From Papaver somniferum (lineage: Eukaryota > Streptophyta > Magnoliopsida > Ranunculales > Papaveraceae): 64,000 nucleotides of DNA. The position numbers and the translations under genes are program-made. Under the pieces are notes generated by a model. That model searched no databases. It was not told the DNA's origin and worked only from the letters and a program-made list of their open reading frames with translations. The stretch spans positions 67,166,256-67,230,255 of the forward strand of contig NC_039364.1 in NCBI RefSeq assembly GCF_003573695.1, read 5' to 3'. Position 1 is the first letter of the stretch; each line of letters starts with the position of its first letter. Of the stretch, positions 21,069 to 51,927 are shown piece by piece.

Positions 21069-21427
21069 TCTTGCCTCTTCTCATATCTTTTCTGCGAAGT
21101 AGAGAATGATGTGAGAAATGCCGCAGCTGTTCATTTCTTCATATTCTGCATTTATCACACGTATTCTTTCTTCCATCTGTTTCTTGACACGTCTTCTGTA
21201 ACCGCTGCTTTTCAACCGCTCACGTCTTTTCGTCTTAATGATGTTTATTTCTTCGAGTAAAAAAAATCTCCTTTATATACTCTTCTTTCCACTTTCTTTT
21301 TACTTTCTCTTCTCTTTTTATTCTCTCATCTCTGCAACTCTGTTATTATTCTGCAAGTTCTGCTACTGTAATTTTTCCCCCTTCAATCTTCTTACTTTTC
21401 ATTCGTTCCCATACTCTATATTCAAAT

Positions 21428-26160: not shown

Positions 26161-26256
26161 TATTAATTGCCCATGAATCTTCAGCTTCATCATCCTCATC
26201 TTCTTTCGGTTTTGGATTAATTTCTAAATTACTACCAATGGATTATCATGCACCTC

Positions 26257-29200
26257 TTATCCTTCGGGAATTTCTTCTGCGGTAAAAGAAATGATATGTT
26301 TCTGACATTCCTCTAGTGGCGATATTTTCGCAATATTCATAATTTCTCTTCCATCGTTATCTCTTGCAAACACTCTACTCAAAACATTGTCATGAAAATC
26401 TTCAATTGTCTTATATGAATGTACGATAGAGTGACAGAATAGAATTTTTTCTTTTGCACCAACTTCTATGAAGAATGTTTCCTTCTTTTTCATCGTGTTC
26501 ACTTTGTGATGCTCTGGTGGTGGTGGTAGTGGTTGAGATTGTGGGTGCCCTACCAAAAAGTGATTTAGTTTTCCTTGATCTATCATTCTCAAAATAATTC
26601 TTTTTACATTTCTGCAATCATTTGTTGTATGTCCATGAAAATGATGATAAGAACAAAACTCATGGCTTCTGTGGTTTGGAGGTGGTTCCGTTCCCATGTT
26701 CCATGGTGTTGGTATATTCTCCATCAAAATTATAGCTTCCCATATTTTCTCCACACTTTCATTTAGAGGTGGCATCTTGATTTCTTCCCATACTACCATG
26801 TGACCTCCTTGTCCTCTATTATAGTTTTGTCTTTGACCTCCATAAGTTTCTTGTGGTTGATCGAGTCTTTGAATCTTGTTATTTCCACCACGATTGTAGA
26901 AATTTCTTTCTCTTTCATACTCCTCTTGATCTCGGCTTCCCATAGACACTAGTTTCTGTTGACTGTTACCCGTCACCTTCTCTTGTTGTACTTGCGAAGT
27001 ATTCGCTACTGTATTTATTAGCTTGGGTAATAAGCTTGCATTCGCTGTTTGTGAGTTGGTGTTCGCAACTGGATATGATTCAATATCATTTTGCCTTTCC
27101 TCTAGAGCAATGTATTCCTCTTGAAGTTCTCGCAATTCAATCATTGTTATCGTATTCTTGACTCTGAAAATTTGGACATACAATAGGTTTGTTGCAAACA
27201 TAGCATTGATAAATGATAATATAAGATATCTCTCATCTACACGGCCATCCATTTCGCTACACATAGTTCTCCATCTTTTAGTCAGGTGTTTCAAACTTTC
27301 GCCAATCCTCTGTTTTAATCCAATCACATCTTCTATACCAAGTCGCGAAGAATTATTACTTATATATTCCCCTAGGAATGTAGTCTGCAAATGATTGAAG
27401 GATGTTATTGTATTCTTTGGTAGACCTTCAAACCATTTTAACACCTCTCCTGTTAAGCTGGATGCGAAATATTTGCACAATACAACATCATGATTTTCCC
27501 ATTGCAACATGCACCTCACATAGGCTTTAATATGTTGAATTGCACAAGTTGTTCCATCAAAAATGCTGGTTAATGCGGGCAAATTTCATTTCGGTGGTAT
27601 TCCTCCTAATTGTACTTCCCTTGTAAATGGAGTTTTCGCAGCTTCTTCTATTGCTTCATCCAATTGTCTTCTGCCTACTTCTCCTCTGTTATTTAGCATT
27701 CCTCTCATTTCTTCTAATTCTTTCAAGATTTGTTTATTTACACCTGAATTTTGATACATCAGTCTTTTTAATTTCGCCTCTCTTCTTCTGCGTTCATGTC
27801 TTTCTTCTCTCGCGAAATTTTGCATTTCTTCTTCATTATCTTCATATCGTCTTCTTCTGCGAGTTTCTTCTTCACCCCTATCTTGAATTCGCAAGTGATT
27901 ATGTCTCTCATTTTCCCCTTCATGATTTTTTTCATTCCTTATTAATTCCATTCGCTGCCTTTCAGCCATTCTCTTTATTCTATCGTACTTTTCATTGATA
28001 TTACCGTTATTCCGGTTTTGTGTAAGCTTTCTTTCTCGATTGTCGTGATTGTTCTAACGAATTGTCTCCTGAAGCTCTTGTTCTTCCATTTCCGCTCTCA
28101 ATCTTTCACGTTCGCAAATTAAACGCGCTTGTACATCATAATGTCTTTCAATTTCTTCTTCAATCGTCTGTTGATTTCTTTGAGTTTCTCTTTCATGTAA
28201 AATTCTTCTTCCTTCCTCTCGATTTCCTTCGTCATCTTGGTCATTTCTTCCCTGACGTTGTCCGTTCCCTTGATTTCTGCCATTTTTCCCATCATCAAAA
28301 GTTTCATTTTGTGGAACGTAACGATCATCAGCTCTTTCTCTATTTTCGCGGTATTCTTCATTAGGATTTGATATTTCTTCTTGAATATTGTTTCCAACAT
28401 TGATTGTGGGTGAGTTTCGCCCCATTTCTCTTCTAGTCGATCTTGAATATGATTTTGTAATACTTCTCGATCTTATACTCTGTAGTTTCATATTGTCCAT
28501 CCTCAATTCGTGATTTTGCCTTGTTAGATTTGCATGTTCTTCTGCCTCAGCTCTTCTTTCTTCATGTATTCTTCGTCTCAACATTTCTAACGCTCCATTT
28601 CTTCATCTCCATGAGTTTCGCCCCATTTCTCTTCTAGTCGATCTTGAATATGATTTTGTAATACTTCTCGATCTTATACTCTGTAGTTTCATATTGTCCA
28701 TCCTCAATTCGTGATTTTGCCTTGTTAGATTTGCATGTTCTTCTGCCTCAGCTCTTCTTTCTTCATGTATTCTTCGTCTCAACATTTCTAACGCTCCATT
28801 TCTTCATCTCCATGAGTTTCGCCCCATTTCTCTTCTAGTCGATCTTGAATATGATTTTGTAATACTTCTCGATCTTATACTCTGTAGTTTCATATTGTCC
28901 ATCCTCAATTCGTGATTTTGCCTTGTTATATTTGCATGTTCTTCTGCCTCAGCTCTTATTTCTTCATGTATTCTTCGTCTCAACATTTCTAACGCTCGAT
29001 TTCTTCATCTCCATGAGTTATTCCTTCATCTGCTTCTTGATTTCTCTCTGCATGTCTATAGTTTCTGGTTTGTTGCTCTTCTTCTACTTCTTCTGCCGAA
29101 TTTGATTGCCAAGTGTGTATACTCACCCTATCATAATCTGTATTCCTCCCTTGTACTAGTGTTTGTTGAATTGGTGGTTGAATTTTATTTTCTCTATTAC

Positions 29201-29306
29201 TTCTCATTCTAGTAGATTCTCCTGTTTCACTTCTTTCTCTCCCAGCAATTCTATTGCTTCTTCTAACAGTAGTCGGTTGTTCAGATGTATTTCTTCTTCT
29301 AGCCAT
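26257..29306 (-). pseudogene. B gag, broken
   Basis: The N-terminus is at 29306 (MARRRNTSEQPTTVRRSN, basic), stopping at 28989. Arg/Glu-rich coiled-coil pieces follow (28054-28584, 27586-27969). The main part (26257-27582) contains the Retrotrans_gag core (HIKAYVRCMLQW, ALKWFEGLPKN-type motif, GESLKHLTKRW) and a zinc-finger-like CSYHHFHGHTTNDC motif followed by LRMIDQGKLNHFL. The join at 27586-27588 is a single in-frame TGA. A frameshift lies near 28989, and the region between carries a 201-bp tandem triplication with TGA codons at its junctions. The capsid part would assemble the particle. Confidence 0.8.
28406..29010 (-). repeat. 201-bp tandem triplication within B gag
   Basis: Three nearly identical 201-bp units encode a segment starting MLRRRIHEE at 28584, 28785 and 28986 on the minus strand. 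The period equals 67 codons, but each added junction reads RNSWR followed by TGA, so the expansion stops the frame. Near-identity of the units implies a recent event. Confidence 0.9.
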
Positions 29307-29423
29307 TTCTTCAACGTTAATAATATTGCAAGAAATTATGTAAAATTCTTAATCAATCACTCTAAATCTTCACAAATCACAATATTAATCTTCAATTTTT
29401 TCTAGAATAATCTTCAATACGTC

Positions 29424-29440
29424 CCTGTTTCTAGCGCCAT
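29424..29440 (-). promoter_or_regulatory. B primer-binding site
   Basis: The minus strand reads TGGCGCTAGAAACAGGG, three bases inside the 5' LTR. TGGCGCTAGAA-type sites occur in plant Tat-like elements (from memory); I do not assign the tRNA. Confidence 0.6.
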
Positions 29441-29442
29441 TA

Positions 29443-29913
29443 TGTAGTTGCAGGAAATCCTACACTACACCCCTCATATGATTTCCTTATTACTCAACTC
29501 ATTTTTTAGATTTACACTCTTAAATTTATTGATCAATCTTTGAATATTCTTAAAAGAAAAGATAAAGGAATCAAGAATGACCTCTGCTCTAGACTTTCTC
29601 TCTCATATTTACTTGTTTCTTACTCAAAAAAGATCTCCCCCTTTCTTTACAACTGAACGAATATTTATAGGGAAATACATAGTGGATGACAGCTAATCTG
29701 TCCTTTATTTTCGGAAATGACTTGCGATATTCTCGCAACCTTACAAATCTTAATCTCGCAAACTCTCTAATTTTCGCAGGACCATCACATCTTTCTCATG
29801 ATTTTAGCTGACGTCGTTTATTATATCATTTCTGAAATTGTTCTGCGCTGCTGTTGTGTTGTGTTGTTGATAATTTCGTTAAGATAGTATTGTTGCGAGA
29901 TTCTGATCCTACA
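29443..29913 (-). repeat. B 5' LTR
   Basis: A 471-bp copy of 20599-21068. The minus strand has a TATA-like CTATAAATAT at 29661-29670 (CTATAAATAG in the other LTR at 20816-20825), about 240 bases from the LTR start, and can act as the core promoter. Confidence 0.85.
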
Positions 29914-29918
29914 ACAAG

Positions 29919-30745
29919 TTTTATACTTGTGAGGTGAATAATAATCTAGGCTGCACTTCGGGTTGCATCAAGTCAGTTCTGCTTCTTCGGATTTTGAGGA
30001 TAGCCAGACTTTTGTCTAAGTTGCTATCGATTTCCATCACCTGGATCTATCGGTTGATCCGATCATTCGTTTAGATCGTAAATCAGGAAATCAATAAATA
30101 GGCTTAATCTGTGGGAGGCAGATTTGGTTTAAAGTCTTCAGTTGAGTTGAAGCAACTTAGTTGAAGTGAGACCATCTAAGGAAATCAATTGCGCAGAATC
30201 CTGCTGGGACTCAAGAGACGTAAGGAGCGCGACTGTACCTGAATCAGTGGGAGACTGAGTTCGGGCTCAACTACATTCCAGGCCGAAGTTAATTGGTAGT
30301 AGGATAATGTATGTAGCGGCTTAATATAGTTTGGTGTTCAATCTGGAATAGGTCCCGGGGTTTTCCTGCATTTGCGGTTTCCTTGTTAACAAAACTTCTG
30401 GTGTCTGTGTTATTTTTTTCCCCGCATTATATTGTTTATCTTTATAATTGAAATATCACAGTTGTGCGTTGATCAATCACAGTAGATAGGTCCAATCTTG
30501 TTAGTTGGAAAAAATACTTGATTGATCCTTGGACATTGGTCTTTGGTACCGTCGAAGAACTCCCTTTGTAGTTAGGTTCACAGATATAATTCTGTAAACG
30601 TTGTAACAACTTGAGAGAGAGAGAGATATATAACACTAGGCACTTTCCTTGATTAAGTTTCTACTCTCGGAGTTGTGTTGAGTTTGTCCATACAGATTGT
30701 CTAAGAAAAAGTTGGTGGTGTATTTTGGTACCTCCGGCATTTTCA
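29919..30745 (+). repeat. A 5' LTR, second part
   Basis: Resumes the LTR of A after the B insertion (ttttatacttgtgaggtg, as at 51575) and ends TTTTCA before the primer site. The 3' LTR matches only to about 51927, so the last part of this segment has no partner there, but it matches the solo LTR at 56578-57420 in reverse. Confidence 0.8.
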
Positions 30746-31970: not shown

Positions 31971-32483
31971 GCACAGGTCTTGGAGCCTTATCCGTAAAAA
32001 TCCTGTTGGATAAGGATCTCCATGTAACAGGTATACTATTTGCCTCAAGTAGTATTTTTTTGATAAGCAACAATCATTTCATATTACAACGTCTTATGAG
32101 TTCAGTCATATTTGAACTTTAGAATTCTTAAGGTGACATTCTCTGACTAAAATCTTCTCATGATTATTGTTTTCTTTTGCTCTAAACTTATGTTTGTTGA
32201 GATAAGAAGACATTCATACTCAAGGAAGTATATTGTCATCACAAAGAACAATGGTTGCAGTTTTGATAAATTGTTGTGCGCTCTTTAAAAATAAACATAA
32301 AAATTGTTTTCTACCCTCATTTTTTTGTTTTTATTTTTTTTCCAAAACCCATTGGTTTGACCGGTCCCGCACTTTCAAAAGGTACACGTATCTTTCCATT
32401 GACTGTGTGAAACCCTAATACCTAAAATAAAGAGGGTCACGAACCGTCGTTCATTCCAGAGAATATCCCTTCCTTTATATACC
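31971..32483 (+). other. A interior up to the C insertion, with a TATA-like site
   Basis: No coding support. The last 80 bases, when joined to 48047 (C removed), read aaaataaagagggtc, then ttcctttatatacc, and lead after about 60 more bases to the ATG at 48097. This looks like a core promoter and short leader for A's second reading frame. ATACC at 32479-32483 is one copy of C's target duplication. Confidence 0.5.
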
Positions 32484-35400
32484 TGTATATGGTGGATTTT
32501 CGACAAAGGGTAGAATTTCAAAATTATACTCCAGATTCGGCAACCAGATGAGTATTGAGACTCATGTCTCTCATTAAAGCATGAAAGCTCATGTCATAAA
32601 TCTCTGACTGAGAAGGATGTCTCTCAGAGTACGTGTAGATGTGTAGTCTCTCAGCTGAGGCCACGACACATCTCATGAATACTAAGCAATTTCAGTAATT
32701 ACTCCGGATCTGGCAATCAGATGAGTATCGAGACTCATGTCTCTGTGCATGAAAGCTCATGCCACCTCTGATGGAGAAAGTCTCTCAGAGAAGATGAAGA
32801 TGTGCAGTCTCTCAGCTGAGGCCACGACACATCTCATACTGTATAGAATCGAAAGATTGGGCGGCTCCTAGACAACATGTCTGCTAGTATAGAGCGACAA
32901 CGTCTTCGAGATGTAACCAGATTTTCCCCGACTATGCAAGAGGAATATGACACTCTAGCAAGTTCATATTGCTCAACCCTCAGATAATTAATGCTCCTAG
33001 ACAGGAAGCCCTTGTAGTACAGAGCCAACAATTAATATCTTAAATCGTCTGAATATCCAGCAACATTCTACGAGTCGTCAATTAATCGCCTGAATATTCA
33101 GCAATATTCTACGATTCCTCGGTATATTTCGTTACTTCAATTTGTGGTTCTTCCCAGCAGAATTCCACAGGTTAGTAATAAATATTCAATGAAACAGGCA
33201 TCTGGGCATCGAATAAGCCCTGACAAAATGGTACAAGTGTAATTAGCATATAATACACAGACCAGCATTTTGAATGCACGAACGAGCATTTTAAAAATAC
33301 GAACGAACGAGGAACCTATGCAAAATAGGAAGGGAAAGTAATAATAATAAAATATTAAACAATATCGCCAGGGGACTAGGCTCACCAGCCGACCAGTCAT
33401 GCCGTGACTAGTCCCGCGCCCAATTTTATATTTTACCATATTTTTACTATTTTCACGATCTCATGAAAATCCTCTCGTTCGAGCAAATTTCCTTTATTTC
33501 AAAGAAATTATCTAAATCACATGATTTTATCAAAAATAATAAAATTAGGGAAAGGTGTCGCGGGACCGAGCACCAGCCGGCCATGTCTTGGCCTGGCGTG
33601 GCCGGTCCCACACCTCACGTCTCCATTATTTTATTATTTCTCTCAAATTATGAAAATTCCTTGATTTTATGAATTTTCCCTAAAATCATGAAAATTACCT
33701 AATTTCATGTATTTTTATCTAAATCACATGATTTTATCAAAAAATAAAAATTAGGGAAAGGTGTCGCGGGACCGCCGGCGCGGTCATGCCTTGGCCGTGG
33801 CCGGTCCCACACCTCACGTCCCATTATTTATTATTCCTTCTCAAATTATGAAAATTCCTTGATTTTATGAATTTTCCCTAAAATTACCTAATTTCATGTA
33901 TTTTCTCTAAAATCATGGAAAATATTAAAAAAATTAGGAAAACTTGTGGGACCGGGCTCTAGCCGGCCGGCCATGCCCTAGCCGGTCCCACACGCCCATT
34001 ATTTTATTATTATTTGGTGTTTGGTTTCCTGATTTCATGAAAACTCCCTGATTTCAACAAAATATCTTGGTTTTCAACAAATCCCTTTGATTTTATGAAA
34101 AATTATCTAAAATCATCAAAATTACATAAAATTGGGAAGAGTGCCTTGGGCCCGCCCCATTGGCCGGCCGGCCATGCCACGGCCATTGCCGGTCCCACAC
34201 TCCCATTCCCTATTTTATATTTTAATTTATGTCTCTCATCTCATGGAAGTTCCCTAATTTCGCCAAACTCTCCAGTTTCATGGAATTTCCCTTAAATCAG
34301 AGAAAAATACATAAAATCACATAAAACTGGGAAAAGCATGTGGGACCGCGTGTCAGGGCCGGCCATGCCCTAGCCGTGGCCGGTCCCACACTTGTGATTC
34401 CTTGTTTATTTATTATTTTCATCATCTCATGTATTTTTGCCGGTTTCAGCAAAACCATGGATTTTGCATATTTTCTCCAAATGTTGCTCAAACGTGCATC
34501 AAAAATATCAAAATTCTCAGGACTGAAGCACGGACACTATGGTGACACGGGCACATCCCCTTGACCGACCAAGGGTGACCCTGAGGCTTGCAAACAGCTG
34601 GTCCCGCATGTTTTAATGATTTTAACCTAATTTGCTCAGTTGCTCATATTAGGTTCGAACTCTTTCCAAACAATTGGAAGTTCGCTCAAACGACCATCTA
34701 CTGGTCCCACGACCATCAAGAGCCGGTCTCATGACCTCTTGGTCCCCTCATATTTTCTACATCAGGTTTTATGATTTGTTGCTCACACGAGCATTATTTC
34801 AGTAAATGATTAAACCAGCATTTAATCATTCTTTCACCAACTGGTCCTCAAGAGACTTTGGTATTTTTGCTCATTCGAGCATCTGGGCGTTATATGGTGA
34901 ACCCGTCATCCCATGTAGCCGGTCCCGTGTTGATTTGCAATAAATCATCATTTCGGTAAAATTAGGGTTTTGAATCCAGAGCTCTGCAGAAACGTGATTC
35001 TGTGCAGATTCGAACACTCTGATAATTTTATGTTGATTCCATGATTGATATTCATATTTATTTTGCTCGACCCAGCAGTCAGTAACTTAAATTAATATTT
35101 TATTTGGTCCAGCTACCAACAATTCATCAAAAGAACAATATTTGCTCGAACTAGCAATATTCGCTCGAACCGGCAATATTTATTCAATTAGCAATATTCG
35201 CTCAGACTAGCAATATTTGCTCAAATCAAAGAATATTGGTTCAACTACCAATATTCAACAATTTAGCAACACAGTTTTGCTCGTCTTAGGTTATAATGAT
35301 ACCTCGTCTCAGCAGACACATTAAATTCATGAGTTTCGAAACATTTGCTAATCATGTTCAACTCAGCTACATGGACTCATCGTCCCATAAAGTCAGCAAC

Positions 35401-36125
35401 TGACTCCACAATCACGAGATTTCAATCGTGTCACATGGGGGGATATTAACTAGGGTTTTGGTCTGGGTCTACGGCACGTGTGTTCACCCACGACGAGAAT
35501 GTGAGCAAGTCGTGCAATCAGTTGGAAGAGTCAGCAAAGTAGTGGGTGGAAAGTTAACCAAGTCTCCGCACGATGAGTAATTGGTTTTAACACGATTTCC
35601 CCATTTCCCACTCTCTGATTCCAGCAACTGTCACACTTCATGGGATCATGGTGTTTTCAACTCCGGCATTATAAAATGTCTCTGAATCCTGATTGAAAAA
35701 AGGTTTTTCGAACAATCGAACAACATTCGCCAAAACGAGCAATTTCTCATCAAAGTTCATACAGACAATCTTTCGTCTACACGAACTCACAGAAATTACT
35801 CTCAATTGAGCAAAATTCAATCATTCAGAGCATTTTCACGCTGAATTCACAACACACCTACAATCTCAGATCACCATTGATCTCACGCATTTCTCAGCTT
35901 CCCTCCTACAGATCAACCCATCCTCTCTTGTGACCGAATTGACTCTGGAACGACCATTGTTCTTGGTTTAGGCCGGGGTCTTACAGATTGATCTCTCGAA
36001 CTTAAAGCACTCCCTTCTTGCAGTGCATCTGTGTGAGGTTCAACATTTCGCTCGGTTCAAGGAGTCTCCACACGGTCGACTCTTCAATTCCGTAAAAACC
36101 AGCAAATCGTTTTTCCCCACTCACA
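32484..36125 (+). repeat. C 5' LTR (3642 bp)
   Basis: Starts TGTATATGGTGGATTTTCG and ends CCCACTCACA. It contains, in order: duplicated modules with ctctcagctgaggcca (32600-32840), six GC-rich hairpins (33366-34397), and clustered aatattTGCTCgaactagc units (about 35130-35270). A likely TATA box, attataaaatg, lies at 35667-35677 (near 47590 in the other LTR). Confidence 0.9.
33366..34397. repeat. Array of six GC-rich hairpins, about 195 bp apart, in C LTR1
   Basis: Each unit has a dyad with gtgggaccg on the left, a GGCCGGCCATG-like centre and cggtcccacac on the right, set in AT-rich spacers full of aaatcatgaaaatt words. Units begin near 33366, 33556, 33761, 33945, 34140 and 34338. The same array is present in LTR2 at 45288-46317. 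Confidence 0.85.
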
Positions 36126-36128
36126 GAT

Positions 36129-36145
36129 TGGCGACCACAGTGGGA
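36129..36145 (+). promoter_or_regulatory. C primer-binding site
   Basis: TGGCGACCACAGTGGGA, three bases after the LTR end. Same type as in element E (one difference). Confidence 0.75.
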
Positions 36146-36182
36146 GGTTAATCTCTCGGTTGCAATCTCACGATTTCACAAG

Positions 36183-37504
36183 ATGGATGGTCTTAGGTCT
36201 GGGTTAGTTACAGGTTCCAACACAAACGACGCTAGTACTAGCAACAACAACAATGACAATCAGAATATCCCGGAAACGATTCCGGCCTCCAACACTGATG
36301 GTGGTGACATTACTCCTCCTCACGCTGAAGGTCATCCCCTGTTCGGTCGACACCCTGAAGAAGTCAGAGGAAATCCACCACCTACCATTGATCTTATCAA
36401 AGTGCAGGAGACTCTCGCAAAGAATCAGACTGACATGGCTGCTACACAGAAGGAGCTGTGTAATTATCTCAAAACTCTTACTGATAAGATGACAGAGAAG
36501 ACTCAAGAAAAGGGAAAAGAGAAGGAGAAATCCTCAGATGTTGCTGATCCTGAAGTAATCCCAATCCATACAGTGGATGATGATGAAACTGGCAAAGTTG
36601 CAGATTCGTCAGCAAAGGAACCATCAAATTTCATTACTCGGGAAGACGTGGAGCGCCTTCTGGAGAACCGTGGAAAAGACAAGACATCACATGTCCATCG
36701 TCACCAACCTCCTTATCCTGCCGCTACGCAGAGGATTCCCCTTCCAAAAGGTTACATTTCTCCAACTTTACTCTGTATGACGGAACTGGCAATAATGCTC
36801 GAGAACATGTCTCTCGTTTCCTCGAAGCCTTGGGAGAGCATGAACATAACCATGTTGTTCGCCTCAAGGAGTTTTCAAAATCCTTGAAAGGCAGAGCATA
36901 CACCTGGTACAACAACATCGCACCGGGGACTATCAACAATTGGGGAGAAATGATCAACGCCTTCTACAGGAAGTACTTTTTCGTGTCAGAGCAAGTCACT
37001 CTCTCTGATCTTGGAAGAATGTTCCAGAGGGTCAGTGAAAATCCCAATGATTACGTGAAAAGATTCAGAGTCCAGGCCCTGGACTGTCATGACCCAAATG
37101 TCACAGAGCAGCAGCTGGTAGATTTGTGTATCAACGGCATGCTCCCGGTTTACAGAGCTCTATTGGAGAATCTTCGATTCCAGACTTTCTCAGAGCTTCA
37201 CGAAGCCGCGAAGAGATCAGCAACCACTGCACCTGCCCTGTTAGAAAGAGCAAAGTCCACAAAGACTGAGGAATCACGTGACACTCGAGGAAAGACGCCT
37301 GATCAACAAGCAGTACAACCTGCATCCTCTGCAAACGCTGCTGAAGGGAGCAAGCGCAAGGGAATCCCCGAACAAGCATATGCAGCTCCTCCAAAGACGC
37401 AAAAGAAGGACAAGCCAGAGACACAGGCTCCTGGCCACGCACAGAAGCTCCTGATGATGCACCTGATTTTCCTCTCCCCATTGGAGAAGTGCTCGAACTA
37501 TTAG
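36183..37504 (+). pseudogene. C gag, one frameshift
   Basis: Starts MDGLRSGLVTGSNTND at 36183. The N-terminal 180 residues are low in complexity and charged, with SNFITREDVERLLENRG. Near 36760 a one-base shift moves the frame. The second part, traced by similarity from about 36765, contains FTLYDGTGNNAREHV, then the Retrotrans_gag core (LKEFSKSLKGRAYTWY, NAFYRKYFFVSEQVTL, NPNDYVKRFRVQALD, LVDLCINGMLP). A basic, Lys/Pro-rich tail follows, and the frame overlaps the next segment at 37489 in another frame. The product would be the capsid protein. Confidence 0.8.
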
Positions 37505-38280
37505 ACACCTGGATCCAAGATGGTGCAATCAAATTGCCATATGTCAGGAGAGACCCAACTGAGGAAGACATGGAAAATCCTCGTTACTGCCGATTCCACA
37601 GGTTCGTCAATCACCCCACAAGTAGCTGCAAAGTTTTGAAACGCATATTCAGAGAAAAAGTTGAGTCAGGAGAACTTAACCTTGGAGCCGAAGGAGTACA
37701 CAGAGATCCTCTTCCTGTCAGGACTTTCTCCATTTCTGAAGCACCAGTCAAGGAAGCGGTTCAGTCATTGATAGAGCATGTCTGTGAATTGCTCTATCTG
37801 TCAAAAGCACAAAGGGGAGACATGTTCACAGCTTTGAACCACATAGTGACTGGGAAACGCCTATTGATTCCAGAAGTACCTCCTGAACCTTCAGCCACCG
37901 ACAAAGAAATGTATGACTGGGGACTGCTCACCACCGTGCATATTAAAGGAAATGAGTTCAAAAGAGCATTCGTTGATGTCGGCACCGCCGTCACATCATC
38001 CCTTTGAAAACTCTCAGAGCTGCTGGCATTACTCGACAAGAGGCTACTCATGCTCCCATAGCAATCAGGGACCACGAAGGAATCTCCAGAGATGCATACG
38101 GCTTCATCATTCTCAAAGTCACAGAGAATTTGGTCTGCACTGAGACCAAGTTTTACATAATTCGAGAAGATCCTGGATATATGATCCTTGGAAGAACTTG
38201 GATTCATGCTGGAAGGGTAATTTCAAAGCTTTCAACACGCTCTGTCGTCGACAAAGACTCCAAGTTGGAAGAGGAAACAG
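37489..38280 (+). pseudogene. C Gag C-terminus and aspartic protease, frameshifted, DVG active site
   Basis: 37489-38007 encodes the zinc-finger-like CRFHRFVNHPTSSC motif, followed by KVLKRIFREKVESGEL and CELLYLSKAQRGDMFTALN. The protease starts FKRAFVDVGTAV; the catalytic triad reads D-V-G instead of D-T/S-G, and a one-base loss follows at once (near 38000). The frame from 38004 continues KTLRAAGITRQEA, then YMILGRTWIH, the second conserved motif. The first Asp is present, but with the Val and the frameshift activity is unlikely. Confidence 0.75.
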
Positions 38281-38582
38281 AGGACACCCCACCGTTCGAG
38301 CATCTGGAGGAAGTAAAAACCTTGATGGGACTTACGCAAGAACCTGGGGAAAATCCACATACCTTTGTCAAAAGGTTTCGAGCTCAGGCAAGTCTTATTC
38401 CTTTTCGTGCTCCAATATTACCAATGTTCAAATATGATGCTTTGATTCAAGGACTTCTCCCTACAAACGATTTAGCAATTACCAAAAGTTATGAATGGAC
38501 AACTTCACCCCGCCAATATTATACCCAATGGTTGGGTTCAGATTCTCCAAGTCGGTCATTCTATCAAGAGGTTTATTGCTGA
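38281..38582 (+). pseudogene. Second gag-like segment downstream of the protease in C
   Basis: Continues the protease frame and encodes ENPHTFVKRFRAQASLI and, 20 residues later, DALIQGLLP. This parallels ENPNDYVKRFRVQALD...LCINGMLP of C's own gag but differs in sequence. A gag piece does not belong after a protease, so it was probably acquired from a related element during the deletion that removed the polymerase. Frame ends at 38582. Confidence 0.6.
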
Positions 38583-38885
38583 AGACCTGGCTAAGCACGA
38601 CAGACAGTATGCTGGGTACTCTCCTCTACATGAGTGCCCATACGTGCCACAACCATGGAATCACAAAAGATATTCAAGGCGCGAACTACTAAGCCGAACA
38701 AATTCGAGGAAGGGAATTTGGTTCTCAAGGCGGCTAAACGAGATCTCCACTCCGCAAGGAGCTCCAATTGGGAAGGACCATTTATGGTTGCTAAGTCCAT
38801 AACTGGAGGATACTACAAATTGGTCAACACGGATGGCAGAACCCTGCCAGTAATTCACGAGAATTGGCTTAAGGCGTTTGTCTGA
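38583..38885 (+). pseudogene. C integrase C-terminal fragment
   Basis: The frame 38634-38885 encodes KARTTKPNKFEEGNLVLKAA, then SSNWEGPFMVAKSITGG, YYKLVNTDG and HENWLKAFV. This order (R..KP..F..GDLVL, NWEGP, Y.L...dG, N...L) is that of the integrase C-terminal domain in Tat elements, which contacts target DNA. The zinc-binding and catalytic DDE domains are absent. It marks the downstream edge of the polymerase deletion. Confidence 0.7.
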
Positions 38886-39267
38886 AATTATTGGGTATTT
38901 GAGGTACTGAGCGTTTGAGCACTCATGATGTCTGGATTTGGCATTTAGGATTTTCTTTCATTGTATTTCAATTCCTCCAAAACGTTTGCAATACTTGCAA
39001 TCAGTATTTGAATTCAGCAATTTATCAAAAATTCAGTTCACTTTACTTAAAGGAAAATCTCAATCAAATCCAAAAGAAAATCCTTAACCATCTAGCAATC
39101 CAAAACCAGCTAATATCAAAACCCAAATGAAAACCTCACATCTCTCAGAAGTTCAGAAATTCATGGGATTATGGAAAGGAAACTAAAGAAAACCATCGAA
39201 GAAAGATTTTGCTCCTCTGCCTCCTCCAAGACTTTCAGAGCCGCCTTTTCCACCTCCAGCTTCCTGG

Positions 39268-42200
39268 TTAGATCACAACTTCATTCATCTTCTTCAACAC
39301 GGCATCACTGGTAGGGAAGGGAACATCGCCCTTTACTGCTTTCCTGATAACTTCAAGTCTTTGACGGAGCCACTTCAGATTGAAGCCAAGATCTTCAGCA
39401 TTCTTCAAGTTGTATTCCCAATCAAAGAGTACATCTTGAGTAACAACATTTCTGGCAGTAATCCGGATATCATCTATGACACGCAAGATAGCCTCCACTT
39501 GTTTCGTCAGAAAATAACTGCGTTCTGGATCCCGAGTGACAACAATGTGTCCATACATTTCCCACAGTTCCTTGTACATAGCAGCATATCCGATAGGAAC
39601 GCTAAATCCTCCAACAAGCTGGTGATACGGGAGTAACTCACCAAATTGAGGATCAAAGGAAATCCCTGCAGTCGGATACTCATGCACTATCATCTGGTTC
39701 TCAACTACTGGAGCAGCATCGGTGATCATAGAGACAATTTCAGAAGAAGTAGCTTCCGCTATTTCGGGTTCGGGTTCCACCGTCTGAGGCACAATTAGAG
39801 TTTCTTCTACCTCCACGGCATCAACGACCAGCGCTTCATCATCTTGAGGCACAGATATGGAAGTCTTGTCACCGAAACTCCTGGATTCCCAAACCATCAT
39901 TACTGGATTCATAATTCCCAACTTCGTTATTCGGCACCTAATGCGAAGATTACATGGGATTAGAATGATTCAAGGATGGAAATCCAATACGATTATAAAA
40001 TTAAGAAAGTAAGTGAACTAACATCATCTAAGTTCCTTATCATGCATCTAAGACGTGTACAAGTAGCATCAAAGTCATGAAACACGTTTTCAAAGAAACT
40101 CAGCTGAAGAAATTTTACACTGCCCTGTGTTCAATGACGAACTGGGAGCAATTGGTAGATATAGAGTTGGGTCATATACCATTCTCTTCGTATGGAAGTC
40201 CTCACAACATGTCAAAATTTCATGGCAATTGGGCGAACGAGCTAGGAGCTGTGGTCAAAACATCGGGCAACATGCAATCTGAAAAAGTTCTGAAAGTCTC
40301 CTGGAAGTTTACTATTTCGTTTTTCAGGCCCTAAACGTGCTCAAAACTTAAAAAGCTTCTTTAAAGCTTGGAAATTTCCTGGGCTTGAGGATACATATGC
40401 AGATATTGAAAATCCGACTCCAGATGAAGATTTTACGGCGTTTTTGGTAAAAAACTGGGTTCTGAATTTTCTGACGACGAAGTTCGACCAAGTTTTTTCA
40501 TATATACACATAGATTCTCATTCATTCATTCACAAATCAGCACTTTCATACTTCTATGAAGAGGGTACAGGGTATATACTTACTTTGGAGGTCTCCGAAG
40601 TACTCGAGGAATTATGATCGTCCGTATTAACGACAAGGGGTTCATTACTTCTATTTGGCTCCGAATCTTTGGAAGCGCCTTCATCTATATTCTCAGAGGA
40701 AGGTCGAACATCAGCACTTTCCGCCTCCATGATGACATCCTCCTGGACATATTATCAAGTAATTAGCATCTTCACATGAAACTTTTATGTCCGATGGTAA
40801 AGGAAATTACTCACGGCGACTTCTTCTTCAACGCTCAAATCAGAAGTCGTCTGCAGCAGCAGAGAATCGAAGACCGTCAATACTAGACGGAGCAAAGTCC
40901 TGTAACCAAATAACAAATATTGGTTTTGAGATCCTGATAATGCGGATGGAAGAAGTCACAGCGGAAAAATATCAACAACTCACCAAAAAGGCGACTGGGG
41001 ACTTTATGGTGTTGGGCAACAACTTGCAATTCTTGCTCCTGCCTTCTCCACCGTGGGCAATTGCCTCCGCCTCTGAGAAATTCACTTCAATTCGAGGTCT
41101 CACAGCACGACCCTCCTGCAAAAGAAATTGATGTAGTAATTAAAGACGATTATACGAGTTGTATGAGGAATATGCAAAAGAATACATACCGGTGAACCTC
41201 CTGGAGATGTCTTTCGTTTGTCACCACCAGAAATATTCCTTAGTCTGGGACGAGAGGCACTCATCTCAGAAGAAGGGGGATCCTTCACTAAAGGTTGGGA
41301 GGCCGTCACATAATCATTAAGACGCTCAAGCTGCTGATCCCAGAATTCCATGTAACCTGGAGTCACGTACGTGGTTCGATCAATACAAGGGAACCAATAG
41401 GAGCTCCCTTCATCATGTGTGTGATCTAAACAAGTCTTAAGTTGTTCCACTGATGGTCTTCTCCTTCTGAAGGTTGGAACACATTGGTCCATACCCATCT
41501 GACGGGCGGTTCTGTCAATATTATACTCCTCCACCGAAAAATCTCCATACGCTGCTGATATTATGTGACCGGGAGTACAACTCAGCATGAAAGATCTTTC
41601 GCCATCACTCAAATCAGCACCGGATTTCAAATACTTACTTTCTCCAGCATTGAAAGTCTTCAATTGAGAAACGTGAGGAGGAACCACCACCCAAGGACGG
41701 AAGTTGAACTCAGACTCGTCATCTAATACGTCGATGAAGCGTGTCTTGGACTGAATTTGCTTCGTAGACCAGCGCATAATCCTAGCGTTGTCTTTCTCAT
41801 GGAAGATACGTCGAGCATCAGCAGAGTTCAGACTTTGTAAGACACTACGGGGAATGGGTGCATAGTTTCCGAAACGCTCCCACATCAGAGCTTGGAGGAA
41901 CATCGTATTGGCGTAGCATTCAATCTTCATGAAGCCGTTCGAAACACTGGAGTCTACGACTAAAGAGTCCAGGTTAGAATATAAAGAACCCAAGAATAAG
42001 CTACCGAGCGGAAGTTGTTCACCTTGAGCCAATTTAATAGCGAAAGGAATTACAAACGGCTTCAACAAGGTACCAGCATCTTCAAACACATCTCTGGACA
42101 GCCATAAGCAGAAAGCAGCAATAGACAACATACCGTCGGGTTCATCAAGAGGGGCGTCTCGTGGCCACCAATGTGTCAACCAATGAGCGTAACAACCTTT

Positions 42201-42878
42201 ACCAAAAACCTTGTTGATTCTCTCCATCTCAGCTGTTAAAGTTTTGGAAACTGCTTTCTCTTCCGCCGTCCAAAGTTCTTCAGGAAAGTTACCTGTAATT
42301 GGAAGATGCAACAAAGCAACTACATCTTCCAAGGTAATAGTGAACTCTCCCCAGCTGCATATAAACGTATGAGTTGGGATGCACCAGCGAGCAAGAAGAG
42401 CTACAATACCTCGTGGTCATGAAAGATATACAAATCTCCAGATGTTTGAACGGCCCTGGTAATTTGTGCTCTATCCAGCATAGCTCTAACACGAGGAAAT
42501 CCCAGCATGTGTCTAGACCATCCCGAGAACTTCTCTAAAGGGCGTCGAGAAAGCTTGAATTCAATCATTGAAGCCTGGAATAATCCTCGTTCAAGACAGA
42601 ACCGAATAGCAGCACGAGGAGTCACCAATTTCTTTTGAGTGACCGTCCTGGGATTGATCAGAAGGCGATATACCGGGGACTTGAGACGATTTTCGGGCTC
42701 CTGAACCTCAAAGAAAGCGTCATCTATGTTTGGGACATTCTTGACTCCAGGTGTTTCGTCTTCCTCACCAACGGAAGTCTCATCCGTGCATGTTTCCTCT
42801 ATGGAGATATCATCATCTGCACACCTTTCATCTCTGGAAGCGTCATTGGCTGGAGAATCAGACATCCTCGCAAAGCTG
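39268..42878 (-). pseudogene. C antisense gene: plant mobile domain (PMD) protein, multi-exon
   Basis: On the strand opposite to element C. ATG (MSDSPAND...) at 42865; its exon begins at 42878 after an acceptor tttcacag. Inferred coding exons: 42878-41191, 41113-40984, 40899-40815, 40742-40584 and 39937-39268. Donors are gtatgt, gtgagt, gtgagt and gtaagt; acceptors include ttttgcag and ggttacag. The acidic N-terminus is followed by the PMD: ALLARWCIPTHTF, GEFTITLEDVVALLHLPITG, ILSIAAFCLWLSRD-like core, and CVPTFRRRRPS. The last exon has the MYKELWEMYGHIV motif and helical segments. PMD proteins include Arabidopsis MAIL1/MAIN and occur in transposons. Frameshifts near 42400, within exon 40899-40815 and near 39890 break this copy. 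Confidence 0.75.
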
Positions 42879-43205
42879 CTGTGAAATCCACACAATGTTT
42901 CAGTCATCCGCGAATTCAATAAGATGATGGAATCATGCAAATTAAAACGCCGGTGTCTACAAACGGTAAATCTTGAACTCTTACCTCTTTCAATTTCACT
43001 AACAATAGTGGTTGCAATACAAGAGTTAACACACGAAATCAATTCGTTCCTTGAAACCTGCAATAACGAACAACACTTCATTAGTTCATGGAAAATGATT
43101 TTCATAAAATCATGTACATAATTTTCATAATGTGAACATTCACACAACTGAACTATGATATTTACAATAAGACATGACTTCATCACAAATAAGTTGTATA
43201 GTTTG
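42879..43205 (-). other. Probable 5' non-coding exon and intron of the PMD gene
   Basis: On the minus strand a strong acceptor ttcgttattgcag lies at about 43059, an exon follows, and a donor gaaagag|gtaagag occurs near 42980. This gives a plausible 5' untranslated exon before the ATG exon. An open frame runs through (from 43186) but has no recognisable domain upstream of MSDSPAND. Confidence 0.45.
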
Positions 43206-44323
43206 AAGGTTACTCAAAACCCATGTCTTGATTTTACAAAACAATAATTAATGCAATTTGTTCATATAAATTTTCAGAATTTATCTAATAAGAAAAATCC
43301 ATGTGAATAAAATACGTCATCATGTTTCACATAAAATATGTCAAGGCTACATGTAAAAAATAAAAATCTATTTTCCTTCGTATTAGTGTTTTATTAAAAA
43401 CCAAGGTTTATGCTAGTTTTGTGGAAGCTCACACCTATTGTGATAAAATACCGACTCTCATGAAAGCTCATAAATAAAGTTTTATCACTGGACATAAGTT
43501 TACATACATAAAAATATATATGTATATTTTCCTCGAATAAACATTATCCTTTAAAACGTAGTTTATTTCGGTTTTGTGAAAGCTCACATCTATTAAGGTA
43601 AAATCTTGGTTCACATGAAAGCTCATACACTAAGTTTTATCACTGGACCAAAGTCCACATATATAAAAAAAAATCTCTCATAAATCAGGGATTTTTATTA
43701 GTTTTCAAAACTAACGATCGAACGAACATACGTTTGATAAAACAAGGGTTTTTCTACAAAACTCACATCAACATATACACATGTATAGAATTTGTACATG
43801 GTGAAAGCATGAAACACTCATGGAATCATCAAGCATCTAAAAAAAAAAATTGGACGCACCTAGTCGGTGCCGGCCGGAAGTTGGTCGGACGGTGCTAGCT
43901 CCTGTTGGACGGACGGTGACGCTCCGGCGAAGATCCTTCCTGCTCCCGTCAAGCTCGGAGGTGAAGGTGATGAAGAGGATGGTGGTCGTGGGAAGGAGAA
44001 TAAAAAAAAAAGAGAGAGAATTAATCCCTTTTATACCTAATTTTATTTCCAAAACCTAATTCCATAAGGATTTCCCTTTTGGGCCCGACCCGTGAATCCT
44101 AAACCAACCAAGGTTCCACCATCGAACCAGCGGTTCTACACGGTTTTATGTTCACTGGATGACGTTCTATTATTCCATAGAGGTTTCCGCTCAAACCATG
44201 GTTAGCTCATTCAGTCGAAATTCGGTAATATCTTATCTTATGACTAAGTTCAATTACTTATTTTTATTTATACCTGGAAAATCACCATTAAATGCTGACT
44301 GAGGAACATGACTGTTCCTCACT
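43206..44323 (-). promoter_or_regulatory. Putative promoter region of the C antisense gene
   Basis: On the minus strand ggTATAAAAGGG (44025-44036) is a strong plant TATA box, followed by a CT-rich patch (44004-44020) typical of plant core promoters. Downstream, 43407-43540 and 43560-43690 are a diverged tandem duplication with the word CATGAAAGCTCAT (43459-43471 and 43614-43626), which is also found twice in each LTR of C. Short open frames at 43837-44059 have no recognisable domain. Confidence 0.5.
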
Positions 44324-44338
44324 AAGAAGGGGACTTAA
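44301..44338 (+). promoter_or_regulatory. C polypurine tract with an upstream hairpin
   Basis: aagaaggggacttaa (44324-44338) directly precedes LTR2 and is a polypurine tract of Tat type. Just upstream GAGGAAC-atgact-GTTCCTC (44301-44320) is a perfect 7-bp stem with a six-base loop. Confidence 0.75.
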
Positions 44339-47300
44339 TATAGATGGTGGATTTTCGACAAAGGGTAGAATTGTAAAACTATACTCCAGATTCGGCAACC
44401 GGATGAGTATTGAGACTCATGTCTCTCATTAAAGCATGAAAGCTCATGTCATAAATCTCTGACTGAGAAGGTTGTCTCTCAGAGTACGTGTAGATGTGTA
44501 GTCTCTCAGCTGAGGCCACAACACATCTCATAAATACTGAGCAATTTCAGTAATTACTCCGGATCCGGCAATCGGATGAGTATCGAGACTCATGTCTCTG
44601 TGCATGAAAGCTCATGCCACCTCTGATGGAGAAAGTCTCTCAGAGAAGATGAAGATGTGCAGTCTCTCAGCTGAGGCCACGACACATCTCATACTGTATA
44701 GAATCGAAAGATTGGGCGGCTCCTAGACAACATGTCTGCTAGTATAGAGCGACAACGTCTTCGGGATGTAACCAGATTTTCCCCGACTATGCAAGAGGAA
44801 TATGACACTCCAGCAAGTTCATATTTCTCAACCCTCAGATAATTAATGCTCCTAGACAGGAAGCCCTTCTAGTACAAAGCCAACAATTAATTATATTAAA
44901 TCATCTAAATATCAAACAACATTCTACGAGCCATCGTCTGAATATCCAGCAATATTCTACGAGCCATCGTCTGAATATCCAGCAATATTCTACGAGTCGT
45001 CAATTAATCGCCTGAATATTCAGCAATATTCTACGATTCCTCGTTATATTTCGTTACTTCAATATGTGGTTCTTCCCAGCAGAATTCCACAGGTTAGTAA
45101 TAAATATTCAACAAAACAGGCATCTGGGCATCAAATAAGCCCTGAAAAAATGGTGCAAGTGTAATTAGAAGATAATACACAGACCAACATTTTGAATGCA
45201 CGAACGAGCATTTTAAAAATATGAACGAACGAGGAACCTATGCAAAATAGGAAGGGAAATAATAATAATAAAATATTAAACAAAAGCGCCAAGGGACGGC
45301 TCACCAGCCGGCCAGTCATGCCGTGACTAGTCCCGCGCCCAATTTTATATTTTACCATATTTTTACTATTTTCACGATCTCATGAAAATCCTCTCGTTCG
45401 AGCAAATTTCCTTTATTTCAAAGAAATTATCTAAATCACATGATTTTATCAAAAATAATAAAATTAGGGAAAGGTGTCGCGGGACCGAGCACCAGCCGGC
45501 CATGTCTTGGCCGTGGCCGGTCCCACACCTCACTTCTCCATCATTTTATTATTTCTCTCAAATTATGAAAATTCCTTGATTTTATGAATTTTCCCTAGAA
45601 TCATGAAAATTACCTAATTTCATGTATTTTTATCTAAATCACATGATTTTATCAAAAAATAATAAAATTATGGGAAGGTGTCGCGGGACCGCCGGCCGGC
45701 CGGTCATGCCTTGGCCGTGGCCGGTCCCACACCTCACGTCCCATTATTTTATTATTCCTTCTCAAATTATGAAAATTCCTTGATTTTATGAATTTTCCCT
45801 AAAATTACCTAATTTCATGTATTTTCTCTAAAATCATGGAAAATATTAAAAAAATTAGGAAAACTTGTGGGACCGGGCTCTAGCCGGCCGGCCATGCCCT
45901 AGCCGGTTCCACACGCCCATTATTTTATTATTATTTGGTGTTTGGTTTCCTGATTTCATGAAAACTCTCTGATTTCAACAAAATATCTTGGTTTTTCAAC
46001 AAATCCCTTTGATTTTATGAAAAATTATCTAAAATCATCAAAATTACATAAAATTGGGAAGAGTGCCTTGGGGCCCGCGCCCATTGGCCAGCCGTCCATG
46101 CCACGGCCATTGCCGGTCCCACACTCCCATTCCCTATTTTATATTTTAATTTATGTCTCTCATCTCATGGAAGTTCCCTAATTTCGCCAAACTCTCCAGT
46201 TTCATGGAATTTCCCTTAAATCAGAGAAAAATACATAAAATCACATAAAACTGGGAAAATCATGTGGGACCGCGTGTCAGCCGGCCAGCCATGCCCTAGC
46301 CGTGGTCGGTCCCACATCTTGTGATTCCTTGTTTATTTATTATTTTCATCATCTCATGTATTTTTGGCGGTTTCAGCAAAACCATGGATTTTGCATATTT
46401 TCTCCAAATGTTGCTCAAACGTGCATCAGAAAATATCAAAATTCTCAGGACTGAAGCACGGACATTCTTAGGACTGAAGCACGGACACTATGGTGACACA
46501 TACACATCCCCTTGACCGACCAAGGGTGACCCTGAGGCTTGCAAACAGCTGGTCCCGCATGTTTTAATGATTTTAACCTAATTCGCTCAGTTGCTCATAT
46601 TAGGTTCGAACTCTTTCCAAACGTTGGAAGTTCGCTCAAACGACATCTACTGGTCCCACGACCATCAAGAGCCGGTCTCATGACCTCTTGGTCTGCCCCT
46701 CATATTTTCTTCATCAGGTTTTATGATTTGTTGCTCACACGAGCATTATTTTACCAACTGGTCCTCAAGAGACTTTGGTATTTTTTGCTCATTCGAGCAT
46801 CTGGGCATTATATGGTGAACCCGTCATCCCATGTAGCCGATCCCGTGTTGATTTGCAATAAATCATCATTTTGGTAAAATTAGGGTTTTGAATCCAGAGC
46901 TCTGCAGAAACGTGACTCTGTGCAGATTCGAACACTCTGATAATTTTATGTTGATTCCATGATTGATATTCATATTTATTTTGCTCGACCCAGCAGTCAG
47001 TAACTTAAATTAATATTTTATTTGGTCCATCTAAAAACAATTCATCAAAAGAACAATATTTGCTCGAACTAGCAATATTCGCTCGAACCGGCAATATTTA
47101 TTCAATTAGCAATATTCGCTCAGACTAGCAATATTTGCTCAAGTCAAAGAATATTGGTTCAACTACCAATATTCAACAATTTAGCAACACAGTTTTTCCC
47201 GTCTTATGTTATAATGATACCTCGTCTCAGCAGACACATTAAATTCATGAGTTTCGAAACATTTGCTAATCATGTTCAACTCAGCGCTACATGGACTCGT

Positions 47301-48046
47301 CGTCCCATAAAGTCAGCAACTGACTCCACAATCACGAGTTTTCAATCGTGTCACATGAGGGATATTAACTAGGGTTTTGGTCTGACGGTCTACGGCACGT
47401 GTGTTCACCCACGACGAGAATGTGAGCAAGTCGTGCAATCAGTTGGAAGAGTCAGCAAAGTAGTGGGTGGAAAGTTAACCAAGTCTCCGCACGATGAGTA
47501 ATTGGTATTAACACGATTCCCCATTTCCCACTCTCTGATTCCAGCAACTGTCACACTTCATGGGGTCATGGTGTTTTCAACTCCGGCATTATAAAATGTC
47601 TCTGAATCCTGATTGAAAAAAGAGGTTTTTCGAACAATCGAACAACATTCGCCAAAACGAGCAATTTCTCATCAAAGTTCATACAGACAATCTTTCGTCT
47701 ACACGAACTCACAGAAATACTCTCAATTGAGCAAAATTCAATCATTCAAAGTATTTTCACGCTGAATTCACAACACACCTACAATCTCAGATCACCATTG
47801 ATCTCACGCATTTCTCAGCTTCCCTCCTACAGATCAACCCATCCTCTCTTGTGACCGAATTGACTCTGGAACGGCCATTGTTCTTGGTTTAGGCCGGGGT
47901 CTTACAGATTGATCTCTCGAACTTAAAGCACTCCCTTCTTGCAGTGCATTTGTGTGAGGTTCAACATTTCGCTCGGTTCAAGGAGTCTCCACACGGTCGA
48001 CTCTTCAATTCCGTAAAAACCAGAAAATCGTTTTTCCCCGCTCACA
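44339..48046 (+). repeat. C 3' LTR (3708 bp)
   Basis: Repeat of 32484-36125, including the hairpin array (45288-46317), the aatattTGCTC repeats (about 47040-47190) and the TATA-like site near 47590. Its first bases TATAGATGG differ from TGTATATGG of LTR1. It ends CTCACA followed by the duplication ATACC. Confidence 0.9.
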
Positions 48047-48096
48047 ATACCATTACCTTGATTGAGAAACTCTCATCCAAGGTTCGGCAACCAAGC

Positions 48097-49838: not shown

Positions 49839-51927
49839 TGTTAGAGCATTGCTCGGTCGAACTCACAAGTGTTTATATATCAAGCTTGTTGTCAACTTTA
49901 GTTGCCAAAACTATATCTTGATTTCTAGTCTAAAATTAGTTAAGTCTCGGTCTAGGATAGTGGAGTTGAGAAACGAACCAGTCATCATTTGCGTTCTACC
50001 GTTTGAAGGCGAATATCAACCGAAGCTTTTGGAGAACTTCAACAATAAAAGGTAAGTGAAGACTGAACCACCTATTTCTCAACTTGTATTCGCTTTTCTA
50101 TCCTGAGACGATTGTCGCATAACTAATTAGACTAGCTTGCATAGACAAGAATTTCGAGTCGAGAACTAATTATTTAGTTTACAAATTTCTGAAAATATAA
50201 TGACTAAGCTTAATGAACATTTGTTCTTACTTAATCAAATTCGGTGGAGAACAATTTATGGTTCGGAACCAAACCATGATTCAAGTTTATCGTTCGAAAA
50301 ATAGACTGGAACACTGATATGTGTCATTGTTATTATTCAAGATTGTTTTTAATCGATTTAGAGAAATATTGAACCACCATATTCGAAATTTGTTTGACCT
50401 CGTATTACATGTATTCGTACACGTGGCGGAGTAGCTATATATCGACTTTCAGATTTGTGTGATATGCATACTCGTATGTAAATCATGGGAAAATCTGTTT
50501 GTTTCGTGATCCCGATAGGTATGTATATTCATATACAAACCATTATAGAACTATAGTAAGGGAACTGGATTAAAATAATCAAACCGGTATGCGAGCCAAA
50601 ACAGTTATATGTTTTAAAAACAGTTTAGTACTCAAACCGGTACGTAAACCGAAAATTCTGTGAACTCCGGAACCGGCAAAGGTCCAAAGTTTGCAAACCG
50701 GTACGTGAATTAAAAAGTTCTGTAGACTCCGGAACTTTGAATTAGTTCAAAGTTTGCAAACCGGTATGTCAACTGAAAAGTTCTGTAAGAATCTGGAACT
50801 TAGTGATTGCTAAGTGTGCAAACCAGTTTATGAACTGAGAAGCTCTGTTGACTCCGGAACTCGGTCATTGCATATAAGTTTGCAAACCAGTCCACGTACT
50901 ATGACTCATCTGATTCACGAACAGTTCAAGTACTTGTACTTTGTACATTTACAAACTATGTCGATTGTGATTCAACCGCGATTAAATTATTTGGTTGAAG
51001 TAATTTGCATTTGACCAATTCTCTAATTAACACTAAACTCAGTTGATCACATGATTGTGACTCAATATTAATGTCTTGTGAACATGAAAATGAGTGTTAA
51101 ACTTTTAAGTTCAAACATGCTAGTTTCGGCTAACCATATTGAACATGGTCTTTATACACGGTTCGGTTACGGTTTACCTAACCATAGTGTATATCTTGTG
51201 TATGTGAATAATATTCAAAGCTTTCATCTAACGGTGAATATTGATTTCTCGGTTCCAAAGCTATCTAAGCTTAAACCTAAAGCAACCTAGGCTTTGAAGT
51301 CTATATAAGGGCAACTCTTGCCAACTGGGATCTTTGAATCTTGACACTACTTTTTGGTATATCCTAGTTGTATCTAGATTCGTCCTCTCCAGAAACCCTT
51401 TTAGGGGTTTAACGACTACAAAGACTTCATTGGGATTCGTGAAGCCGGGTCCAGTTATCTTTTATCTTGATAACTTGAGTATCCCGATCTTGATTGTTTG
51501 TGGAGCCTTGCTACATCAATCAAGATAGATAGTGATCAACAAAGTCTCTTCGTCTCATACTTTGTTGATTCCGTAAGTTTTATACTTGTGAGGTGAATAA
51601 TAATCTAAGTTGCACTTCGGGTTGCATAAGTCCGGATTTTGAGGATATGCAAACTTTTGTCTAAGTTTTTATCGATTTCCATCACCTATATCTATTGGAT
51701 GACCCGATCATCCATTTAGATCGTAAATCAGGAAATCAACAAATAGGCTTAATCTGTGGGAGACAGATTTGGTTTAAAGTCTTCAATTGAGTTGAAGCAA
51801 CTCTTAGTTGGTGTGACACTGTCTAAGGGAACCAATTGCACAGAGTCCTGCTGGGATTCAAGAGGCGTAAGGAGCGCGACTGTACCTTAATCGGCGGGAT
51901 ACCTTTTAGGGATCAACTACATTCCGG
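49839..51927 (+). repeat. A 3' LTR, truncated
   Basis: Begins TGTTAGAGCATTGCTCGG and follows the 5' LTR, with many single-base differences, up to actacattccgg (51917-51927). There it is replaced by LINE sequence, so about 450 bp of the LTR end is missing. The U3 repeats and the TATA box (51300-51310) are kept. Confidence 0.85.

Follow-up and report, generated by a model that had tools for sequence, protein, structure and literature searches.

A selected antisense plant mobile domain gene with predicted introns in a pol-less gypsy-type retrotransposon family of Papaver somniferum

The window analyzed here, a stretch of 64,000 nucleotides (64 kb) from the Papaver somniferum genome (contig NC_039364.1, positions 67,166,256 to 67,230,255), contains a gypsy-type long terminal repeat (LTR) element at 32484-48046. 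On its minus strand, antisense to gag, this element carries a seven-exon, six-intron gene (about 44003-39268) for a protein with a plant mobile domain (PMD). Based on the sequence evidence we consider it about 85% probable that this is a real, selected antisense PMD accessory gene of an abundant, non-autonomous gypsy-type family that lacks pol. Codon comparisons between genomic copies show purifying selection on the PMD protein, and the gene is probably spliced, with six introns removed, and transcribed from its own TATA promoter.

The open reading frame (ORF) at 41103-42416 of the minus strand matches PF10536 (plant mobile domain) with an E value of 6.4e-39 and 134.5 bits against a cut-off of 34.9, which bears out the PMD gene proposed in the initial annotation. 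The predicted protein has ~890 residues, and 1.8 kb separate its stop codon from the gag ORF. At the other end, between the gene and the 3' LTR, the putative promoter combines the TATA box TATAAAAGGG with a downstream pyrimidine run of 19 nt that begins at 44020, so both elements named in that annotation are present. Protein searches returned 27 distinct relatives, of which 21 are named Papaver somniferum, while the viral_contigs and genome_contigs databases yielded none. A sequence search of the PDB gave weak matches only (best E 0.01), and two AlphaFold2 models with mean pLDDT (predicted local distance difference test) values of 44.9 and 46.9 were too poor for fold searches.

An LTR pair, a target-site duplication and gag identify the host as an LTR retrotransposon. 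Its LTRs of 3.6-3.7 kb are 97.7% identical over 3595 aligned sites (Kimura two-parameter distance, K2P, 0.024), and the primer-site-like sequence at 36129 and gag place its sense strand on plus. Between the protease-like region and an integrase C-terminal-like tail, the scan of the element ORFs detected no reverse transcriptase (RT), RNase H or integrase core. The putative primer binding site TGGCGACCACAGTGGGAG is presumably tRNA-Arg-like; together with the PMD and the long LTRs it makes a Tat-type lineage plausible. The features that define Tat/Ogre, a phylogeny of RT, RNase H and integrase and a second RNase H (aRH) between RNase H and integrase, concern domains that the element lacks in the ORFs scanned.

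In order to compare copies, we searched the 2.7 Gb Papaver somniferum genome for the PF10536 family; 109 of 22,762 first-look candidates were scored, and at least 149 matches were found. Twenty stretches were compared, comprising 17 copies of the family, one continuation of a copy (L022) and two without a match to the element (L026 and L035). The alignments below thus have 18 rows, the window and 17 copies; 16 of the 19 chosen places are rows without in-frame stops. Two subfamilies are apparent, one with the window and five copies, the other with 12. They are about 72% identical to each other; most aligned pairs fall at 0.68-0.73, whereas one rearranged copy gives 0.61-0.63. All 17 copies are collinear, running from the gag-protease stretch through a short tail to the PMD gene with no pol core between, and in each gag is antisense to the PMD gene, as had been claimed for the window. 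Two of the 17 contain only the later part of the gag-protease stretch, and one copy is without most of intron 3.

The pol-less junction (38250-38700) was searched separately, with 2834 first-look candidates. Among the 40 matches listed, window included, 37 extend end to end and the other three come within 2 bases of full length, all at 98-100% identity. Since the junction is matched nearly end to end in the listed places, the pol-less form is the amplified form, and a missing pol core in an amplified form marks a non-autonomous family. A search with promoter and exon 1 (3942 first-look candidates) lists the window and 39 other places at 94-96%. When the 40 listed junction matches are combined with the 40 listed promoter matches, 13 pairs lie within 30 kb of each other, in every case on opposite strands. 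They comprise the window (6.09 kb), seven at 6.03-6.10 kb, one at 4.8 kb and four otherwise arranged. The genome also holds a second PMD class in dozens of places, with the domain split in two and open frames mostly of about 600-770 residues.

Between subfamilies the ratio of nonsynonymous to synonymous substitution rates (dN/dS) is 0.164 in the antisense frame (72 pairs, mean 807 codons), a rough figure because dS, with a mean of 1.34, is partly near saturation. Values below 1 had been named beforehand as a check on the exons. The two parts of exon 3 give 0.067 and 0.118, the latter for the PMD exon, followed by exon 4 with 0.24 and the C-terminal part of exon 7 with 0.30; in shifted frames the ratio is 0.93-1.97, exon 6 excepted. 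On the opposite strand of the main exon, pN/pS (the corresponding ratio of nonsynonymous to synonymous differences) is 1.19 and 1.44 in two frames and 0.36 in the third, which we read as a shadow of the antisense codons. Gap lengths agree: multiples of three make up 86% of the gaps both in exon 3 (42865-41190) and in the 36-nt exon 5, compared with 0-18% in introns. Comparisons inside each subfamily, which also capture decay after insertion, give dN/dS values of 0.37 and 0.31. The gag-protease region is constrained as well (0.18-0.23).

A separate observation concerns the synonymous divergence between subfamilies, which in the PMD exons (39268-43057) is 1.34 compared with 0.65-0.75 in gag-protease and also looks higher than the divergence of introns 1 and 6. 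The PMD exons may have a history different from the rest of the element through recombination.

The window copy itself is unable to make a whole PMD protein because of two frame disruptions. The break at about 42416-42413 is seen with five of the six relatives spanning the site, and P0010, P0026 and P0027 reveal another net shift of frame, at about 39890-39873; several copies of both subfamilies are unbroken in the latter region and some are broken nearby. An intron at the first break, near 42410, was considered and excluded, since the homology of the same five relatives continues across it with no intron; the sixth, P0005, crosses the region with a longer intron. From the LTR divergence, neutral decay over 2.67 kb would predict ~8 frameshifts, a rough count as indel numbers depend on the alignment, and 1.3 nonsense changes. 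Two frame changes and no in-frame stop were seen. The element therefore probably inserted with an intact frame, and the protein would have been lost later through the frame disruptions.

These data make it very improbable that a host or foreign PMD gene is simply carried along without function for the element. Passive carriage would fit the broken window copy and the lesions in many others, but it predicts neither a dN/dS of 0.164, where most wrong frames give about 1 or more, nor a frame that was probably intact at landing. The same low ratio is left unexplained if what matters is the antisense RNA, pairing with genomic RNA and feeding small interfering RNA control. We regard this as improbable too, even though the PMD mRNA would find its complement, over the whole gene, in any full-length sense RNA and PMD genes of tea give rise to 21-nt phased small interfering RNAs (PMC10673657). 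Antisense transcription towards gag might also form double-stranded RNA, as the initial annotation suggested, although the gene ends 1.8 kb from the gag ORF.

Evidence for the introns comes from related proteins. A Papaver protein, P0010, yields four phase 0 GT-AG introns (introns 3-6) when aligned in a splice-aware manner, and the borders drawn by eye agree with this alignment except for the intron 4 acceptor, which by eye lay 49 nt upstream. P0026 and P0027 give identical borders for the last intron, P0007 recovers intron 3, and P0005 concurs on one donor and two acceptors. Further introns appear in some relatives' models, and several of these resemble artefacts of prediction. The P0010 alignment reaches a score of 929 when GT-AG is required, higher than with any of 60 random other dinucleotide pairs (60/60 lower, best 897); without a dinucleotide requirement it scores 944 and several borders shift. 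Together with dN/dS and the copies, these controls exclude a chance exon pattern, and the GT-AG introns of the initial annotation hold up.

For the 5' part we used P0023, a protein of 267 residues in which exon-1-like residues abut exon 2; it comes from a contig of 1034 bases with the source tag 'lgn'. In the genomic copy that best matches its exon 1 (E 0.004), 0.8 kb separates the two parts. Aligned to the 18 rows, P0023 requires in eight a single intron, 794-1054 nt long, with the expected TTGCAG at its end; exon 1 was not found in five, and four use another acceptor. The window row needs two introns, the last one ending at TTGCAG, and the window by itself shows a modest similarity to exon 1.

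The copies add to this picture. Introns stay in place across them: aligned with P0010 row by row, intron 3 keeps its aligned position in 16 of the 18 rows and intron 6 in 17, which is stronger evidence than the dinucleotides. Introns 4 and 5 are found in all six subfamily-1 rows, while in subfamily 2 exon 5 is resolved in one row of 12. The TATA motif recurs in 16/18 rows, once as TACAAAA, and is missing from two. Donor GTs are present in every row for introns 3-6 and in 17/18 for intron 2; the acceptor AGs of introns 1, 2, 3, 5 and 6 occur in 16-18 of 18 rows (intron 1: 16/18). Between subfamilies, conservation of the PMD gene is highest in a non-coding core of intron 6, whose longest near-invariant run is 24 nt at 40481-40458; an Rfam search of intron 6 gave no matches. 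Intron 1 holds an internal duplication at 43400-43630 with repeated TGAGCTTTCA. This sequence has seven exact minus-strand places in the window, all within LTRs or intron 1, and since intron 1 looks internally duplicated we set the repeats aside as binding sites.

Several observations weigh against a spliced and selected gene. The acceptor AG of intron 4 is present in 6/18 rows and lost in subfamily 2, and the donor of intron 1 is aligned in 7/18. Of the other intronic dinucleotides, 19/112 GTs and 18/79 AGs are likewise common to all 18 rows; because so many are shared, conservation of the splice dinucleotides is weak on its own, and we rejected it as sole proof. Exon 6 is little constrained (0.61 in frame, 0.67 and 0.85 shifted), and gaps in multiples of three amount to 0% in exons 4 and 6, with few gaps, and to 28% in exon 7. 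Many copies are damaged, with an open stretch of at least 556 residues in 8/18 rows. Finally, P0023 only presumably derives from an RNA, and it matches exon 1 over a short stretch (E 0.004).

Passage through an RNA copy normally strips a gene of its introns. In the genomic RNA of this element, the PMD introns would read CT-AC and because of this should not be removed, so antisense placement would let them persist. The argument, already made in the initial annotation, is sound, and the copies keep their introns with few exceptions. Because an antisense gene escapes intron loss, a spliced gene with its full regulation can travel in a retroelement, and conservation among the copies documents this escape for a polymerase-less family. 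The TATA promoter would be active, and RT and integrase would be supplied in trans by a related autonomous element. The gene had also been called a self-sufficient unit. This applies to the PMD gene of the family, but not to the broken window copy, nor to the element, in which RT, RNase H and an integrase core were not found.

As for function, MAIN and MAIL1 of Arabidopsis control the expression of gene sets as well as silencing, which leads us to infer a nuclear regulator of element expression. The most likely role of the PMD protein, though a tentative one drawn by analogy, may be that of a nuclear factor sustaining the transcription of its own family. Alternatively, it might work in the copying cycle, in the particle, nuclear import or integration, instead of transcription. 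The nuclear protein of Grande gene23 and the comparison of antisense ORF proteins with retroviral accessory proteins (PMC7264820) are compatible with this, as is the constraint on gag-protease, yet we find it doubtful. It seems unlikely that the protein restrains the element as a self-limiting helper of host silencing. MAIN and MAIL1 are required for silencing of transposable elements (PMC7156037, PMC5418596), but they are also required for the expression of other genes (PMC7156037), and a restrainer would be harder to maintain by selection at the level of the element. Returning to a factor that sustains transcription, a broader and rather speculative possibility is that the spliced antisense PMD gene replaced the copying enzymes: the element would borrow RT and integrase and survive by controlling its own transcription. 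Its own contribution would then be a nuclear PMD factor under selection, along with control sequences in introns and promoter, a view we hold just as loosely. The coordinates of all features are given in Table 1.

Table 1. Positions of the PMD gene and of its host element in the window.
Feature	Position	Strand	Basis or remark
TATA box TATAAAAGGG	44026..44035	-	sole such 10-mer in the 64 kb window, both strands
Exon 1 (5' untranslated region)	43860..44003	-	start estimated from TATA box; P0023 N-terminus
Intron 1	43058..43859	-	P0023 against copies
Exon 2 (5' untranslated region)	42985..43057	-	P0023 splice-aware alignment
Intron 2	42879..42984	-	P0023 and copies; GT 17/18, AG 16/18
Exon 3, ATG at 42865, PMD	41190..42878	-	frame disruption about 42416-42413 in window copy
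Intron 3	41116..41189	-	P0010 alignment; same aligned place in 16/18 rows
Exon 4	40984..41115	-	P0010 alignment and copies
Intron 4	40851..40983	-	6/6 subfamily-1 rows including window; acceptor differs in subfamily 2
Exon 5, 36 nt	40815..40850	-	P0010 alignment and copies
Intron 5	40743..40814	-	6/6 subfamily-1 rows including window; GT 18/18, AG 18/18
Exon 6	40584..40742	-	P0010 alignment and copies
Intron 6	39938..40583	-	same aligned place in 17/18 rows
Conserved non-coding core in intron 6	40240..40560	-	86-87% between subfamilies, two 120-column blocks
Exon 7, stop 39270-39268	39268..39937	-	frame disruption about 39890-39873 in window copy
5' LTR	32484..36125	+	pairs with 44339-48046
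3' LTR	about 44339-48046	+	first bases uncertain by ~5
Target-site duplication ATACC, 5 bp	32479..32483 and 48047-48051		flanks of element
Putative primer binding site TGGCGACCACAGTGGGAG	36129..36146	+	from sequence
gag ORF, PF03732	36587..37504	+	E 4.4e-11; frame breaks in window copy
Protease-like region, frame-broken	37900..38370	+	motif by eye, Pfam support absent
Integrase C-terminal-like tail	38634..38882	+	by eye; Pfam/PDB match absent

The PMD element is part of a series of nested insertions at 18862-51925. An older element with LTR pieces at 18862-20599 plus 29916-30279 and at 49839-51925 (K2P 0.094 on the larger piece) hosts a second element at 20599-29913 in its LTR (K2P 0.030) and, in its internal region, the PMD element (0.024). 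The second element runs in the opposite direction, with gag (PF03732) on the minus strand, and no RT or integrase domain was found in its ORFs scanned. On the plus strand, at about 21428-24136, it has an antisense multi-exon gene of its own, with TTTATATACTC at 21272 and a pyrimidine-rich leader. By eye this gene has five GT-AG introns, at least one in-frame stop and one frame break; two of its exons gave no Pfam matches up to E 10. The two elements may share one design and differ in the protein carried.

Among known systems, the VANC proteins of VANDAL DNA transposons, which reportedly counteract silencing, offer a model for a transposon-encoded protein acting on silencing, as the initial annotation suggested the PMD gene might do by countering host silencing of the element, but VANDAL belongs to an unrelated element class and the likeness is by analogy only. 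Closer are the extra ORFs for PMD proteins reported in 57% of Ogre elements (PMC6317226) and the clades PMD-A1 and PMD-A2, carried only by Gypsy elements (PMC5418596), which likewise place PMD proteins in gypsy-type LTR elements of flowering plants. The poppy gene differs in being antisense, in its six introns and TATA motif and in belonging to a family without an RT, RNase H and integrase core; the accessible text of the Ogre source is silent on orientation and introns. Antisense additional ORFs are also known. Grande gene23 has its own promoter and encodes a nuclear protein (PMC7264820), and the PMD gene resembles it as an antisense gene with a putative promoter of its own, situated between the pol remnant and the 3' LTR where gene23 lies between pol and the 3' LTR; neither introns nor a PMD is mentioned for gene23 in the accessible part of that review. 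Retand elements, some of them non-autonomous, carry antisense TRP28 ORFs (PMC11963269) with a different domain, PF04195; that source tallies ORFs and nowhere uses the words intron(s) or splicing. ORF-based surveys of antisense genes can overlook multi-exon ones. A description of an antisense PMD gene with conserved introns did not surface in the open literature searched, although older reports may exist. The poppy family offers a concrete system for asking what transposon-borne PMD proteins do and how the PMD silencing factors of the host arose. Overall, PMD genes in Ogre elements and antisense genes with their own promoters were already known, while the combination of conserved introns with a pol-less architecture looks new in the literature searched.

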